Below are positions 8,914 to 24,874 of a DNA stretch of 64,000 nucleotides, piece after piece (within the stretch, counting starts at the first letter, position 1; every line of letters starts with the position of its first letter). The translations under genes were made by a program, and so were the position numbers. The DNA comes from Rhodoferax potami (GTDB lineage Bacteria; Pseudomonadota; Gammaproteobacteria; Burkholderiales; Burkholderiaceae_C). Below the pieces are notes generated by a model. The model worked only from the letters and a program-made list of their open reading frames with translations. It searched no databases and was not told the origin of the DNA. Where the stretch lies: assembly GCF_032193805.1 (NCBI RefSeq), contig NZ_JAVBIK010000001.1, forward strand, positions 1,571,001 to 1,635,000, in the 5' to 3' direction.

Positions 8914-10068
8914 ATGATGGCCACCGATTACGCCACCTCAGCGCCTTTGCGCCGACGCCCTTGGCACCTCGTAGCCCTGGGGGTCTTGGTGCTGGCGTTG
9001 CACTGGAGTTTGCTGGGCGGCTTTGCGTACACCATGCCGTGGCTGGCTGAAAGCAGCGCCGTGGATTCGCCCCCTATGCTCCTGCCGTCACTGTCGACCC
9101 GGGTGATTGCAAGCCAGGCCGAACCGGACACGCCGCCACCCACTGCAGCTCCCGCCCTAGCACGCCCGCGGCCTGCATCCGCAGCCCCCCGTCACACCGA
9201 CATTGGCGTGGCCGTCAACAGTGATACCGCCAGCAGTGCCAGCGCAACGCCTGCAAGCGACAACCCGGCCACTACGCCGCCCGAAGACTCGCCAAGTGAA
9301 CAGGTCGACACCGCGGCACCATCCAGCGAGCCGGCAAGTCTGGACAAAGCCGCAGACAGCGCCGCTGAAAGCCCTGCTGCCCTCCCCACCGCGCCCGCCA
9401 AGAGCACCGAGCGGCCTTTGCGCTTTGCATTTCCACCGCCAATGCAACTCAACTACGACGTGAGCGGACTGACCGACGGCCAACAAAACGTGGTGAGCGC
9501 AACGATTGCATGGCGACACGACGGCGCCGCCTACCAGGCCAGCCTGAATGTCACCAAATTCATGCTGAGCTTGCGGCAATGGAACAGCAAAGGCGCGTTA
9601 ACCGTCGCCGGCCTGGCACCTGCGCGGTTTGGCGAAAAAGGCTTGCGTCGCGCAGAAGTCGCGTCGCATTTTGTGCGCGAAGAAGGCCGTGTGATTTTTA
9701 GCGCCAACTCTGCGCCCGCCCCCCTGCTACCGGGGGCACAAGACCACATGAGTGTGTTCATGCAACTGGCGAGCATGTGGGCCGGTGAGCCCAACCGGTT
9801 CGGCGCTGGCGATTCGCTGTCGTTCCAGTCCATAGGCCCGAGGCAAGCGGAAACCTGGACTTTTGTGGTGTCTGCGGAAGATCGCATCAGCGTCCCGGGC
9901 GGCAATATGCAAGCCATCAAGCTCACGCGCGAGCCCACGGGGGAGTACAGCACCAAAGCAGAAATCTGGCTGGCACCCCAACTGGCTTATATGCCTGCCC
10001 ACATCAGACTGTCCGAACCCAACGGCAACGTGCTCGACATGGTCTGGACCGGCAGCCAACCCCTTTAA
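8914..10068 (+). CDS. DUF3108 domain protein with long linker
   Basis: 384 residues: an N-terminal membrane anchor (residues 19-40), a low-complexity Ala/Pro/Ser/Thr linker to about residue 165, then a DUF3108 domain (LNYDVSGL...VSATIAWRHDG...FMLSLRQWNSKG). The fold is predicted to be a periplasmic beta-structure; function is unknown. The next gene encodes a second, shorter DUF3108 protein whose domain aligns with this one (both contain GAQD..SVFMQLAS and YxVSGL/YDVDGL), so the pair arose by duplication. Starts at 8914 or 8917. It diverges from the FAH gene with 78 bp between. Confidence 0.75.
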   Translation: MMATDYATSAPLRRRPWHLVALGVLVLALHWSLLGGFAYTMPWLAESSAVDSPPMLLPSLSTRVIASQAEPDTPPPTAAPALARPRPASAAPRHTDIGVAVNSDTASSASATPASDNPATTPPEDSPSEQVDTAAPSSEPASLDKAADSAAESPAALPTAPAKSTERPLRFAFPPPMQLNYDVSGLTDGQQNVVSATIAWRHDGAAYQASLNVTKFMLSLRQWNSKGALTVAGLAPARFGEKGLRRAEVASHFVREEGRVIFSANSAPAPLLPGAQDHMSVFMQLASMWAGEPNRFGAGDSLSFQSIGPRQAETWTFVVSAEDRISVPGGNMQAIKLTREPTGEYSTKAEIWLAPQLAYMPAHIRLSEPNGNVLDMVWTGSQPL

Positions 10069-10083
10069 ATAAACACACTACCT

Positions 10084-10851
10084 GTGCCTCCTGATTCATT
10101 CGCTACCACAACAAGACGCGCCCTACTGGCGCTCGCAGCCGCATGGGCCAGCCCCTCCTGGGCCCAAACCAGCCTTGTAGAGGTAGCACCGGCTTCTGCC
10201 GCGCTGTACCAGCCGCCACCATCGGCTCGCATCGCCTATGACGTGGATGGGCTCATAGGCGGATCGTCTTACAGCGGCAACGCGGAGTTGGTGTGGACGC
10301 GGGATAGCAAAAACTATCAAACGCAGTTGCTGATCCGCAAATTCGGACTCACGCTCCAGGCGTGGACCAGTGCGGGCAGGCTCACCGCACGCGGGTTGGA
10401 GCCCGAGACTTTCAGCAGCCAAAAAATAGGCCAAGCCGAGATATTTGCCTACTTCGAGCGGGATGCAAACCGGATCCGCTTTAGCGCCGGTACTCCGAAT
10501 GCCCCTTTGCAGCGCGGTGCCCAAGACCAACTCAGTGTGTTCATGCAACTGGCCAGCCTGTTGGGCGGAGCCGGTACATCTGCGACCTCGGGAAAAGCCG
10601 TCAGCATGCAAGCGATCGGCGACCGGTACGCCGAGCAATGGAGCTTTCACCCGTCCGCGCCTGAGACGGTAAAGCTGCCAAGCGGGACGCTTCAGGCCGT
10701 CAAGTTCACCCATGAACCCACGGCAGAGCGCAAGCAGCGCCTGGAGCTCTGGTACGCGCCCACCCCACACTATGTGCCGGTGCGGATACGCATTACCGAA
10801 GCCAACGGGGATTACCTTGATTTAGTGGGGGCAAATACCCAATTCCGCTGA
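10084..10851 (+). CDS. DUF3108 domain protein, exported paralogue
   Basis: The protein has 255 residues with a twin-Arg-like N terminus (TTRRALLALAAAWASPSWAQ) that looks like a cleaved signal peptide. The DUF3108 domain spans most of the mature protein and shares AQDQLSVFMQLASL, GDRYAEQWSF and AVKFTHEPT with the upstream gene. A GTG start lies 15 bp after the upstream stop, so cotranslation is likely. Predicted periplasmic; function unknown. Confidence 0.75.
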   Translation: MPPDSFATTTRRALLALAAAWASPSWAQTSLVEVAPASAALYQPPPSARIAYDVDGLIGGSSYSGNAELVWTRDSKNYQTQLLIRKFGLTLQAWTSAGRLTARGLEPETFSSQKIGQAEIFAYFERDANRIRFSAGTPNAPLQRGAQDQLSVFMQLASLLGGAGTSATSGKAVSMQAIGDRYAEQWSFHPSAPETVKLPSGTLQAVKFTHEPTAERKQRLELWYAPTPHYVPVRIRITEANGDYLDLVGANTQFR

Positions 10852-21168: not shown

Positions 21169-21345
21169 TCAGACCAGCCCGTGCTTTCTGGCCCGGTAGG
21201 CAAGCTTGGCGCGGCTGGTGTTCAGCAGCCGTGCGGCTGCCGACAGGTTGCCCCCCGAAGCTGCAATCGCCTTTTGGAGCAGCGATTGCTCGGTTTGCTC
21301 CAAGGTCATCGCCTGCGCCGCCGAGTATTGATCGACGCACTGCGG
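21169..21345 (-). pseudogene. Fis-type HTH fragment of a sigma-54 type regulator
   Basis: An open frame ending at 21169 encodes TLEQTEQSLLQKAIAASGG and then NLSAAARLLNTSRAKLAYRARKHGL, a typical C-terminal Fis-type helix-turn-helix of an NtrC-like activator. The AAA+ and sensory parts are missing; upstream codons are unrelated and no good start exists (an ATG at 21309 would give about 46 residues). It adjoins the truncated end of the integron array, so a larger gene was probably lost or cut there. Confidence 0.65.
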
Positions 21346-21530
21346 CACAAACCTTCTTGGCGTCAAGGACTGTGGCCGCGCGAATTTCAAGTGACATTGA
21401 TAATTTACCAACTCAGTGAAACTAACCAATTCAACGCTAGTTATTTAGAAGCCATGACTCCACGCGGACCTTCAATCCGAAGCCGGGGCATATAGAGACA
21501 AATAGCCTGCTTTCGTATTGAGCTAAAGCA

Positions 21531-21563
21531 GTCGTTACGTCCCTCTCGATGGAAGGGTTAGGC
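21531..21563 (-). other. Truncated attC site (R''-L'' half)
   Basis: GCCTAAC (reverse strand, 21557-21563) overlaps the TAA stop of cassette 1 and is followed by CCTTCCATCGAGAGGGAC. The same L'' style (CCTTCGCTGGAGCGGGAC) follows the R'' of the 24049 site. The expected closing GTTRRRY core is absent, so the site is truncated at the array end. Confidence 0.6.
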
Positions 21564-22010
21564 GTCACTGCCCGCACCCTTTAGAACTTTCTTTGGATCT
21601 CGGATAAATGCTGCGACACGCGAGCGCTCAAGCGCGATGGCAATAGCGGCAGACTTTGCTTCGATCGGCTGCCAGAACTCGACTGCGAATAGGCTGCAGT
21701 CGAGCAACTCACTCAGTTCGCAAAGCGACTCTATAAACTCAGTTGCCTCGCCTCTGGCATCTATCCGGGCGCCTATTTCCGCCGTGCCATCTTGATCAAG
21801 GACGAGATCTACACGACTTCCATCTGTCGGTCCGTAGATTAGCCAACCATCAAGCATTTCCCATGGCTCACCGAAGCGCGCAGACAACCAAGCTTTGGCT
21901 TCGACAACTCTCTCAGCTCCGACTGAGGGGCTTTCGTGACCGTCCGAAGTTCGTGATGGCATTGGACCGCCGCAGGGAACGAGTGAGAGGTCGAATTGCC
22001 AGATTGCCAT
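21558..22010 (-). CDS. Integron cassette 1: hypothetical protein
   Basis: 150 residues, soluble, acidic. It opens MAIWQFDLSLVPCGGPMP and later has FGEPWEMLDGWLIYGPTDGSRVDLVLDQDG. I do not recognise the family; the opening resembles small immunity-type proteins common in cassettes, but this is a weak impression. The ATG at 22010 is 18 bp after a GTTAGGC core at 22029-22035, and the TAA forms part of the following R'' core. Predicted cytoplasmic. Confidence 0.7.
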   Translation of the reverse strand: MAIWQFDLSLVPCGGPMPSRTSDGHESPSVGAERVVEAKAWLSARFGEPWEMLDGWLIYGPTDGSRVDLVLDQDGTAEIGARIDARGEATEFIESLCELSELLDCSLFAVEFWQPIEAKSAAIAIALERSRVAAFIRDPKKVLKGAGSDA

Positions 22011-22028
22011 GGTCGACGCGTTCGTGAC

Positions 22029-22076
22029 GCCTAACGTTTGAGATGAGAGGAGTCGCGGTGCCAGTGAGCCGCTGAT
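22029..22076 (-). other. attC site, degenerate
   Basis: Reverse strand ends CTCAAAC-GTTAGGC (core 22029-22035), the classical L'-R' end. The R'' partner next to the cassette 2 stop is not recognisable, so only half is well preserved. Confidence 0.6.
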
Positions 22077-22496
22077 TCATGGCTTTTCGCGAACCGCTTG
22101 CCCGGCGGATAGCGTGGCGACCACCAAGCATGCCAATACCGACATAAAGCCAACAGTCGCGACTGCAAACAGGCCGGACTGAAATGCTTGTGTCGCCTCC
22201 GTAGCGGTTAATGGCGCAAACTCTTTAAACAAACCGTTGATCCACACCGGCAATACATGGATAACTCCAAGACTGCTGATGAGTAGCAGTGGAATGCCGA
22301 GCCAGTGCAAACGCCAGGATCTGTGGATTGAGGCATATGCCAGCGTGAGAGCCAGCAAAGTTGCGGCCGGAACGCCTCGCTCCGCTTGGATGTGTGGGTA
22401 CTCGAATTTTGAGATTGACCAAACGAGCTCGATGAACCACAGCGTGGCGACCACTGCAAGGAGCAGTGTTGTTGCTTTCGCAAGCTTCGATCGCAT
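22077..22496 (-). CDS. Integron cassette 2: four-helix membrane protein
   Basis: 139 residues from MRSKLAKATTLLL. Hydrophobic segments at about residues 8-27, 43-60, 65-82 and 108-132 predict a small integral membrane protein. No family is recognised. The ATG is 11 bp after the GTTAGGC core at 22508-22514. Local GC is clearly below that of the host genes. An upstream in-frame start at 22556 would begin inside the attC site and is rejected. Confidence 0.7.
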   Translation of the reverse strand: MRSKLAKATTLLLAVVATLWFIELVWSISKFEYPHIQAERGVPAATLLALTLAYASIHRSWRLHWLGIPLLLISSLGVIHVLPVWINGLFKEFAPLTATEATQAFQSGLFAVATVGFMSVLACLVVATLSAGQAVREKP

Positions 22497-22507
22497 GCTT
22501 TGACGAC

Positions 22508-22594
22508 GCCTAACGTTGGAGGCCACCAGCAGGCAACATGCGCCGCGAAGCGGCAACCTGATGTTGCTTGTCCGTGTGGGCCGAAGTGTTAAGC
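22508..22594 (-). other. attC site, 87 bp
   Basis: R'' GCTTAAC (22588-22594, overlapping the cassette 3 stop) to R' GTTAGGC (22508-22514). The interior folds: GGCCCACACGGACAAGCAAC pairs in part with GTTGCCTGCTGGTGGCC around CCGCTTCGCGG, the central VTS loop. Confidence 0.85.
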
Positions 22595-22894
22595 GTCATT
22601 TTCAGCATAGTGAATAATTCTTTCGACTAATGAATGAAGGTCCGGCAGCTGTATTGGCTGGTTAGCCCTCCATTCAGTCAGCATCTCTAGAACGATTGAC
22701 GCCTCCAAAAAGTACTCCATGCCAGGAGCGCGTTCGGCTGCGACTTCGCGCCACGGGAGTGAAAGCTCATTCTCTGAAAGTACAAGCGCAACCGCAGCCG
22801 ACCGTGAGAGAAACTGGCCGTTTACGCGCTCGGCAAAAATCAAGGTTTCGTCCGGACACTCACTTAGCCCAGCGATGACTTCGTGCAGTTGCAT
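22589..22894 (-). CDS. Integron cassette 3: hypothetical protein
   Basis: 101 residues, acidic, mostly helical: MQLHEVIAGLSECPDETLIFAERVNG then AAVALVLSENELSLPWREV and LHSLVERIIHYAEND. Not recognised. Its ATG is 3 bp after the R' core (GTTAAAC, 22898-22904), and its TAA is inside the next R'' core, so the gene fills its cassette completely. Confidence 0.7.
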   Translation of the reverse strand: MQLHEVIAGLSECPDETLIFAERVNGQFLSRSAAVALVLSENELSLPWREVAAERAPGMEYFLEASIVLEMLTEWRANQPIQLPDLHSLVERIIHYAENDA

Positions 22895-22897
22895 GAT

Positions 22898-22964
22898 GTT
22901 TAACGCCCAAGTTCACCGGCGGCCATGCGAAGCATGGACGTCCGTGTGCAACGACCAGTTAGGC
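22898..22964 (-). other. attC site, 67 bp
   Basis: R'' GCCTAAC (22958-22964) to R' GTTAAAC (22898-22904) on the reverse strand. The centre CCATGCTTCGCATGG is a perfect hairpin, and ACGGACG / CGCCGGT arms flank it. Confidence 0.87.
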
Positions 22965-22999
22965 TGGTGGCGGATGCTCGGGTGTTGATACGCATGACA

Positions 23000-23371
23000 C
23001 TATTCACGGGTTCTTCGGGCCTCTTCAAACGGACAGATGCTGTCGGGCGGTGGAAGACGCGCAGGGTTCTCGGAGTAGTTGTAGAGCTCGAGGTTAACAA
23101 TGCGAGTGCCAGACGCCCACAAGATCATGCCAATTTCTTCGCCGTCCTCGGTGTATCCAAGTCCATCCGCGAGACGAAACTGATTTTTTGCTTCGGTGAC
23201 GCCGCTGAAGAACAGGCTTTCGCAGCCGCAGGGGCATTTGCCAACGATCGTCAGTGAACCAATTTCGCAAGATGAGGCTTCACAGGATGGACCAATTGGC
23301 GCACGTGTGAGCAGCGCGCTAACTACAGCTGCTTCAATAGGCGCTATTGGTCGCGGAGTGACGGGCAGCAT
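23000..23371 (-). CDS. Integron cassette 4: small Cys-rich hypothetical protein
   Basis: 123 residues. A cysteine group near residues 29-50 (CEASSCEIG then KCPCGCESLFF) suggests a metal-binding knuckle; a Glu/Asp-rich part follows and the end is basic. No family is recognised. The ATG is 5 bp after the R' core at 23377-23383. Confidence 0.7.
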   Translation of the reverse strand: MLPVTPRPIAPIEAAVVSALLTRAPIGPSCEASSCEIGSLTIVGKCPCGCESLFFSGVTEAKNQFRLADGLGYTEDGEEIGMILWASGTRIVNLELYNYSENPARLPPPDSICPFEEARRTRE

Positions 23372-23376
23372 GAGAG

Positions 23377-23445
23377 GCCTAACGTTTGCGGTAAGCGGAC
23401 CAGCCAGAGTAGCTGGCGCAGGTCCGCTTGACCAAAAGGTTATGC
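23377..23445 (-). other. attC site, 69 bp
   Basis: R'' GCATAAC (23439-23445) to R' GTTAGGC (23377-23383) on the reverse strand. Interior AAGCGGACC...GGTCCGCTT and CCAGC...GCTGG pair into the expected stem. Confidence 0.87.
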
Positions 23446-23446
23446 C

Positions 23447-23926
23447 TCACCTGCGCCTGCCTTCGAACTTTTCAGCCAACTCGTAGAGCAGGCGAAGCTC
23501 TTGCTCTTGCCCCGGCTCGCCCTCCAGCATGTCGATTTGATGGCGAACAAGGTGGAACTCGCCCTCTCCACGAATGGATCCGCGCATCTTGATCTTTGCG
23601 AGGCGGTCGGCTTCCTTGACTAGGAAGTCCGGATAGTGGGCTGAGGTTGCTGCCGCTAGCGCTTGGACAGCGTGCTTTCTAGCCTCGGGTTGCATGGATT
23701 GCATCAGCATCGGTGTTTCGCGGAGACCCTGCTCCATTCCGGAGGCAAGCGCTGATCGAGGAGCAATCGTCGGCTGGTCGTATTGATGCCGAATCCCGGC
23801 CCAGTTCACCACAAGGCGCTGCGCCATCGGATCGTCTAGCTTCGCGATGGCGAAGTGGAACTGGTCAAAGACGGCGACCAACTTACCAAGCTTGTCACTT
23901 CGTGTCACGGTGCGGTCCTGAGGCAT
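23447..23926 (-). CDS. Integron cassette 5: hypothetical protein
   Basis: 159 residues from MPQDRTVTRSDKLGKLV. Soluble, mostly helical with charged tail (EQELRLLYELAEKFEGRRR). A central region reads RLVVNWAGIRHQYDQPT. No domain recognised. The start codon overlaps the R' core GTTATGC (23923-23929), so there is no room for a normal ribosome site within the cassette. Confidence 0.7.
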   Translation of the reverse strand: MPQDRTVTRSDKLGKLVAVFDQFHFAIAKLDDPMAQRLVVNWAGIRHQYDQPTIAPRSALASGMEQGLRETPMLMQSMQPEARKHAVQALAAATSAHYPDFLVKEADRLAKIKMRGSIRGEGEFHLVRHQIDMLEGEPGQEQELRLLYELAEKFEGRRR

Positions 23927-24049
23927 AACGTTTGAGCTGAGGGGCCGGAACCGGGATGGCGCTTGGCCCGCGAAGCGGATGATGACAGCGAGCGCTTCGC
24001 GGGCCAAGAGCCATGCCGGTGGAGGTCCCGCTCCAGCGAAGGGTTAGGC
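23923..24049 (-). other. attC site, 127 bp, long central stem
   Basis: R'' GCCTAAC (24043-24049) to R' GTTATGC (23923-23929) on the reverse strand. CTTGGCCCGCGAAGC and GCTTCGCGGGCCAAG pair perfectly, making a long stem typical of larger attC sites. Confidence 0.87.
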
Positions 24050-24176
24050 CTCGCTCGCTGGGTGAGGAACTGGCTCGCAGAGATTTCGGCTCACCGCTTG
24101 TAGCGAGTGACTGCCGGCGCCTCCGCTCTTTGCACCCAGTTGCGGTGCGCCCATGGCTGCCACCCAAGTTGCACGC

Positions 24177-24473
24177 TCAATGAGTACCGGTGATTCTGAG
24201 TAGCAGGCCTATGCATGCGCCTGCGACAGCTGCTGCGCTACAGAAAAATGCGCTACGAACCTTGGTGCGACGGGCTTTGACTAACGGATTGAACTTGCCT
24301 AGCAGTACACCGGGTCCTTTCGAGAATGCACGATTCTCTGCGACCACGAACCACGATAGAGCGATACAAACTGCGAAGAGTCCGAGGATGACGTGCGGCA
24401 CGTACTCTGCTGTGACGACACCCGCAAGCAATGCGCCAGCGATCGCGCTAAGCAAAGGTAGAAGAACGTACAT
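24177..24473 (-). CDS. Integron cassette 6: small membrane protein
   Basis: 98 residues with three hydrophobic segments (about 3-24, 27-44, 74-94), the middle flanked by AENRAFSKG and a basic loop VKARRTKVR. Probably an inner-membrane protein; not recognised. The ATG is 16 bp after the outer R' core GTTAGGC at 24490-24496. Between its stop and the next R'' core (24050-24176) is 127 bp with no gene. Confidence 0.68.
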   Translation of the reverse strand: MYVLLPLLSAIAGALLAGVVTAEYVPHVILGLFAVCIALSWFVVAENRAFSKGPGVLLGKFNPLVKARRTKVRSAFFCSAAAVAGACIGLLLRITGTH

Positions 24474-24496
24474 GGGTCGGAGTCGCGAGGCCTAAC

Positions 24497-24874
24497 GTGT
24501 TATGGGCGTCAAACACGTCTTATGAACAAAGCTACATGGACCCATGTTTTCCTCCCGTGGATTTTTTAAGTGCTTGATTTATATACGATGAGCCCGACCT
24601 GAGGCCGCATGGCCAACTATAAAAATGAAGCTAAACCCTGCAAACCTGCTTATGAACAAGGTGGCTTGCTGATGAACAAGGTGGCTTGCTGATGAACATT
24701 GCGAACGAAAGATCAGTAAGTCTTTGAATCGATTGGGCATTTTGACTTTGGCTGGAATTTTTATGTGAATAACAGAATAGTCAAACCCTGCAACAAGCTA
24801 GAACTAGGTGTCTTGTTCGTAGGTCCGCTTATGCCCCTCATTGCACCCGCCCCACTAATGGCATCATCCCCGCC
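24497..24874. other. Gene-free boundary between cassette array and LysR gene
   Basis: No gene is seen. The segment is AT-richer than the host and holds a short tandem repeat (24651-24690). TATGAAC appears several times (for example near 24521 and 24651). No integrase open frame or remnant was found; a promoter for the cassettes, if present, should lie here on the minus strand. Confidence 0.5.
24651..24690. repeat. Two tandem 20-bp units
   Basis: TATGAACAAGGTGGCTTGCT is followed directly by GATGAACAAGGTGGCTTGCT, and then a partial third unit GATGAACA. One base differs between the full units. Confidence 0.85.

Follow-up and report, generated by a model that had tools for sequence, protein, structure and literature searches.

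In a 64,000-nt stretch of the Rhodoferax potami genome (hereafter the window; C1:1571001-1635000 of 4.0 Mb in three contigs), we identified an integron cassette array which lacks an adjacent integrase gene (intI) and which, by homology, appears to start at its own attI with a leader. We found that the first cassette of this array is present, without a single difference, in the array of the one intact intI of the genome, 778 kb away, and that related genomes carry entirely different cassettes at the same site. We propose that the locus is probably a secondary attI platform receiving cassettes in trans, most likely through that intI. The platform would consist of an attI and its leader without an integrase gene, fixed between Fis/MarR-type and LysR-type regulator genes; the leader would provide a promoter region, a ribosome-binding site and a short leader open reading frame (ORF) ending in the crossover core, and an IntI encoded elsewhere, most likely by the single, SOS-type intI, would insert cassettes at the orphan attI and excise them again.

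The cassette array, which the first-pass annotation had observed, was confirmed as real. It extends exactly from 21538 to 24495 and holds six minus-strand ORFs, A to F, each following a GTTAGGC, GTTAAAC or GTTATGC core. A covariance model of attC sites (R2) had taken 4 of its 13 training sequences from the window and was therefore not accepted as proof. We relied on another covariance model (R3), made of 57 attC from 26 loci with the window and the intI locus of the same genome left out; its sequences are independent, although their selection is not wholly so, as they were gathered with R2, and one training attC (L141 7914-8043) lies at a place that matches the attC of cassette F at 94% identity. 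Scanning the 64 kb with R3 identified four complete attC, all in the array, at E-values, which are rough, of 1.3e-19 to 7.8e-8, and no other attC, the next match standing at E 0.89. With at least two attC and no neighbouring integrase, the array is, as first described, a cluster of attC sites lacking an integrase (CALIN) by the usual definition. Compared with a complete integron, it has the attC array and, judged by homology, probably an attI at its head, and lacks an adjacent intI.

The first cassette links the window to the integrase locus. In a BLAST comparison with 58 kb around intI (locus L009), window 23926-24498 and L009 8403-8975 were identical at 573 of 573 positions. The identity ends at the IntI crossover/core sites, the extra flanking bases being shared core letters and a chance match, and encloses the 567-bp cassette F unit (23929-24495, minus strand), which is the first after attI in the window and the fourth in the intI array. 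Outside this cassette, the array regions of the two loci have just a diverged leader and attC stretches in common. Exact identity confined to one cassette fits site-specific recombination rather than a segmental duplication. A DNA-level search of 103 genus genomes (E<=1e-15) found the whole cassette F in its own genome alone, in two copies, while in two other genomes the match covers 125-155 bp, comprising its attC and adjacent bases. The IntI of this genome would recombine at the orphan attI, and the transfer may have been directed towards the window array.

Next, cassettes at the same site were compared between relatives. Among named genomes, 'Comamonadaceae bacterium OS-4' (AP026970.1) was the closest relative found; next came a Comamonadaceae metagenome-assembled genome (MAG) and Rhodoferax and 'Curvibacter' genomes. 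The same leader lies at the same place in OS-4 (L020), in the MAG D1_MAG_00060 (L021) and in G032 (L138), where the longest flank segments shared with the window are 93-96% identical (BLAST, E<=1e-30, matches >300 bp); on its far side, L021 has 213 bp in common with the window (90.6%) and a different neighbour beyond. The four sequences match as far as the crossover G of attI, and the match resumes with GTAACGACTGC at the distal border. Between these limits, no shared cassette was detected in the six genome pairs (E<=1e-10, matches >90 bp), and the sole similarity inside the arrays is a 92-bp attC stretch common to the window and L138. Synteny across four genomes also holds for each of two more orphan attI loci (L100/L125/L127/L130 and L122/L128/L141/L148), and at neither is a cassette shared, save for a 91-bp attC stretch of L128 and L141. 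Sharing across loci and genomes was found between G072 and G056 (88.9% over 570 bp), G000 and G006 (80.6% over 376 bp), G056 and G021 (87.8% over 288 bp), and L147 and L124 (80.9% over 199 bp).

The array head appears to be an attI by several comparisons. The attI proper (24496-24536, minus strand; core GTTAGGC at 24490-24496) spans 41 nt to the crossover G at 24496 and is identical to the intI-linked attI at 35 of 41 positions and to that of OS-4 at 41 of 41; an alignment of 17 leaders also backs the assignment. It belongs to a leader block on the minus strand (24489-24820, outer end approximate) with promoter region, leader ORF and attI and without intI. Window 24489-24680 aligned at 74-75% over ~200 bp with the leader that separates intI from its array (L009 10154-10346), and the block matched L123 at 77% over 341 bp and OS-4 at 92% over 268 bp. 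In the comparison with L009, the attI proper was 85% identical and the remaining leader 59-69%, and the attI proper is, on this alignment, better kept than the other leader parts. No intI remnant was detected within 2.5 kb upstream of the window attI at E<=1.

The leader may also express the first cassette. A weak candidate cassette promoter (Pc), TTTGCA-17-TATAGT, lies at 24616-24644 on the minus strand; promoter-like sites number 2 in 500 bp against 0.5 expected in shuffles, a weak excess, and the second hexamer of the candidate is not kept at the intI locus. Further down, the leader ORF MGPCSFVHKTCLTPITR (24492-24545, minus strand) has 17 codons, an ATG at 24545, a Shine-Dalgarno stretch GGGAGG at 24551-24556 and a TAG stop made by the core. 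Among 33 fetched leaders, a set which overlaps with the 33 survey sites below and is not identical to it, 29 have an ATG 49 bases upstream of the crossover G, 31 keep the 17 codons open, 32 show a Shine-Dalgarno-like stretch and 23 take their stop from the core. The bases of the leader ORF are also those of attI, and their conservation is therefore no proof of peptide conservation.

Several further features of the leaders were observed. The window leader contains a 20-bp tandem duplication, GTTCATCAGCAAGCCACCTT, at 24640-24700, which is absent from OS-4. By eye, several leaders contain the block TTGCAGGGTTT..AATCAA..TTGTTCATAAG a second time at a distance of ~135 bp, which would suit an ancient tandem duplication of the leader. 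At one orphan locus, the middle block of the leader is of the intI-locus type in L141 and L148 (G056 and G019) and not in L122 and L128, which looks like gene conversion between attI copies within a genome. At L126, the orphan attI is preceded by a degenerate attC (10028-10131) and a cassette-like ORF of the same orientation; movement of the leader as a cassette, which this suggested, was rejected as the homology borders differ between loci.

We then examined the integrase, counting intI as present where a match to TIGR02249 exceeded the curated cut-off. The genome has one such match (C1:813471-814415; 458 bits, 315/315 positions), and its nine other matches all lie below the cut-off (<=80.9 bits). 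The description of the array as lacking an integrase therefore holds locally, but not for the genome, in which this intact intI has an array of its own. The intI ORF (L009 10405-11430) encodes 341 amino acids (aa), and a LexA-type box CTGT-N8-ACAG, which we take to be the LexA box consensus, overlaps its start at L009 10397-10412; the integrase may thus be under SOS control. The intI array is divergent from intI, with five attC matches on the opposite strand. R2 gave 10 attC matches in the genome at E<=0.05; among the matches listed, 4 lie in the window array and 5 in the intI array.

The intI locus is syntenic in five genomes, of which three keep intI and two, OS-4 and G056, are without it. 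At the latter (L121 and L143), intI and the LexA-type box (cf. L009 10380-11435) are missing, while attI, leader, flanks and cassettes stay; G056 keeps just the last few bases of the box. Of the two break points, one is alike in OS-4 and G056 and the other differs by ~12 bp. Here, the integrase gene alone was cleanly lost (or gained). At another locus, L133, a remnant of the intI C-terminus (20 aa, ~1289-1348, 75% identity, E 8.5e-5) lies upstream of attI; G008, which holds L133, also has an intact intI.

To see how widespread such leaders are, we surveyed 61 genus genomes with a sequence-only leader model (R1), the survey filters dropping some weak matches. This gave 33 leaders in 16 genomes, 12 of them being R1 training sites and 21 new, and several platforms occur in one genome. 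A third leader of the window's own genome (C1:2933722-2933815) is accompanied by a single gene, SRPBCC-like as judged by eye, and gave no attC match. TIGR02249 exceeded the cut-off in 12 of the 61 genomes and in 8 of the 16 with leaders, and intI adjoins 4 of the 33 leaders (G000, G032, G045 and G072), as judged by eye from positions. Among the 29 others, G032:C40 cannot be assessed, as its contig breaks off on the intI side, and G021:C81 has an intI fragment 2.9 kb upstream; contig ends were checked for all except three of G064 and one of G021. Same-strand attC were found <=5 kb downstream of at least 17 of the 29 among the R2 matches listed, and three more (L126, L127 and L139) bring the total to at least 20. 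Several genomes are fragmented MAGs, and absences are therefore soft. Nevertheless, OS-4 (2 contigs), G060 (1), G062 (10) and G056 (30) are 99-100% complete and carry an orphan attI without intI. At the family level, the leader was found in 6 of 299 genomes at E<=1e-8, in three genera, and one of the four leader-bearing family genomes outside the genus has intI.

Several results weigh against a platform filled in trans. An identical cassette in two arrays was found in one of 11 genome groups (27 locus pairs), and none was seen in the 10 others; where one genome has both an orphan and an intI array, the next best match between the two reaches 85.5% over 228 bp (L134-L135). The distal border of the window array reads G^TAACGAC and not GTTRRRY. 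With the thresholds applied, attC are missing downstream of nine of the 29 orphan leaders (one has a weak match, E 0.0055), and as half of the 16 attI-bearing genomes are without intI, many such arrays have no present helper. Finally, at the intI locus of OS-4 and G056 intI is gone and attI is kept, so that plain integrase loss also yields orphan attI arrays.

The last point leads to the best-surviving alternative, namely that a complete integron at the window site lost its intI and that the array has been frozen and decaying since. Besides the intI-only loss at those two loci, the intI tail upstream of attI in L133 speaks for such a course, as does the truncation of the last attC and the attC of B in the window. 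We nevertheless consider it unlikely, since cassette F is identical to the intI-locus copy though the leaders differ by ~25%, four genomes with closely similar flanks have no cassette in common, and the search upstream of the window attI found no trace of intI. The first-pass annotation had inferred an integron that lost its integrase; given an intact intI, an attI with leader of the array's own and an exactly shared cassette, this is not the best account of the present state.

It would also be conceivable that the two F copies were captured separately from outside and that the IntI acting on the orphan array was a foreign, for instance plasmid-borne, one that has since disappeared. Cassettes do circulate between species and loci, as the 570 bp shared by G072 and G056 at 89% indicate, but zero differences in 573 bp with both copies in one genome, the finding of the whole cassette F in no other of the 103 genus genomes and the lack of a second intI over the cut-off make this quite improbable. 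That the cassettes landed at a chromosomal target of the attG type, into which insertion was reportedly described by Loot in 2024, and that the upstream sequence is no attI, would suit the non-canonical distal border but is hardly credible, for such a target is unrelated to attI, whereas here 200-330 bp of attI-leader homology, with a common leader ORF and core, recur at many loci, four of them beside intI.

A platform receiving cassettes in trans therefore remains our preferred explanation for the window array. We extend it to the genus only tentatively: the genus may run a distributed integron, in which one SOS-controlled IntI would serve several fixed attI platforms scattered along the chromosome, each with a leader and all with an expressed first cassette at the same time, and many 'dead' CALINs might be live outposts.

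The individual cassettes, all on the minus strand, were as follows. Gene F (24177-24473, 98 aa, by eye a likely membrane protein) is followed by a 127-bp attC (23923-24049; R3 44.8 bits, E 4.7e-9), gene E (23447-23926, 159 aa) by one of 69 bp (23377-23445; 50 bits, E 2.2e-10), gene D (23000-23371, 123 aa) by one of 67 bp (22898-22964; 40 bits, E 7.8e-8) and gene C (22589-22894, 101 aa) by one of 87 bp (22508-22594; 85.9 bits, E 1.3e-19). Between gene B (22077-22496, 139 aa, also a likely membrane protein by eye) and gene A (21558-22010, 150 aa), just the 3′ half of an attC is recognizable in the sequence (22029-22076), without an R3 match; as its 5′ half is lost, B and A look like a fused pair. 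A truncated terminal attC (21538-21563) forms the distal border and adjoins the conserved flank GTAACGACTGC. Thus, of the six cassettes on attC sites first described, the six ORFs and their cores stood, but the array has four working-looking attC, the B/A junction being a half site and the site after A a short remnant. From core end to start codon there are 16 nt for F, 5 for D, 3 for C, 11 for B and 18 for A, and the ATG of E lies inside its own GTTATGC core; B and E were taken from inner ATG starts of longer ORFs. Single-stranded hairpin folding of the four attC gave z of -6.2, -3.4, -1.9 and -0.6, the third being folded with a 1-nt register shift (22899-22965). The last two hairpins are weak, and folding energy alone would therefore not prove them.

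Searches of Pfam, NCBIfam and PADLOC with the six proteins gave no match that exceeded a curated cut-off or had an E-value below 0.028, in agreement with the earlier view that they belong to no recognizable family. The suggested roles in defence, immunity or metal handling found no support in these family searches, the best PADLOC match being that of gene B at E 0.028. Homologue searches covered A, D and E and returned 30 proteins for A (the window's own included), 13 for D and 98 for E, none with a Pfam domain. D has a conserved CxCGC motif and a predicted mixed fold (predicted local distance difference test, pLDDT, 88.6), and the predicted model of E has seven helices (pLDDT 90.1); a fold search with the E and D models gave no significant match. 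Beside the array, at 21169-21429, lies an 86-aa ORF of Fis-type helix-turn-helix (PF02954), whose OS-4 counterpart is broken by ~214 bp (L020 4731-4944).

CALINs are common, with 2961 counted against 2760 complete integrons, and they have been proposed as degraded integrons (PMC9024848). The window array resembles them in having at least two attC, no intI nearby and cassettes of unknown function, and differs in its probable attI and leader, in the turnover of cassettes at a conserved place and in one cassette exactly common to an intI array. If integrase-less arrays own an attI and are refilled remotely, part of them would be working platforms, and their conserved positions would be explained. 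A search for attI, beyond intI and attC, would then become necessary; outside class 1, attI are not among the elements that IntegronFinder 2.0 detects, and such sites would go unseen. The window genome offers a ready test pair, with two attI types, one IntI and one cassette in both arrays.

Partial counterparts of this arrangement are in print. In Xanthomonas, the available sections of the source describe intI at one locus and distal CALINs at other conserved chromosomal places (PMC12444791); these sections mention no attI at the distal CALINs, whereas the window array appears to have one, and an attI could be the missing reason for their conserved positions. That CALINs might be mobilised in trans has already been put forward as a possibility (PMC12444791, PMC9668308), and CALINs away from intI are frequent in Shewanella (PMC9229058). 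The Delta-attI-type gene cassettes of mobile integrons likewise place an attI away from intI (PMC12901181), but there an attI piece ends the cassette in place of attC, whereas here attI and leader would head a fixed array. The window leader also has the layout of ORF-11 at attI1 of class 1 integrons, that is, a Shine-Dalgarno stretch, a short ORF across attI and a stop given by the core, for ORF-11 by positions 3-5 of the inserted core (PMC8876359); its peptide is unrelated, has 17 codons instead of 11 and also occurs at attI without intI. A literature search, made without most subscription journals and bioRxiv, did not find syntenic chromosomal intI-less attI and leader platforms, several per genome, with turnover and an exact intI-array cassette. 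One precedent was found, to which others in print may possibly be added: the cryptic Shewanella prophage M16-3 carries a CALIN that has an attI of its own (PMC9892861). There, a complete integron and an intI-less array carry the same attI type at each head; it is a single case in one prophage, with a 28-nt site. Compared with it, the arrangement described here comprises several chromosomal loci with a long leader in many genomes, together with evidence of cassette turnover and exchange.

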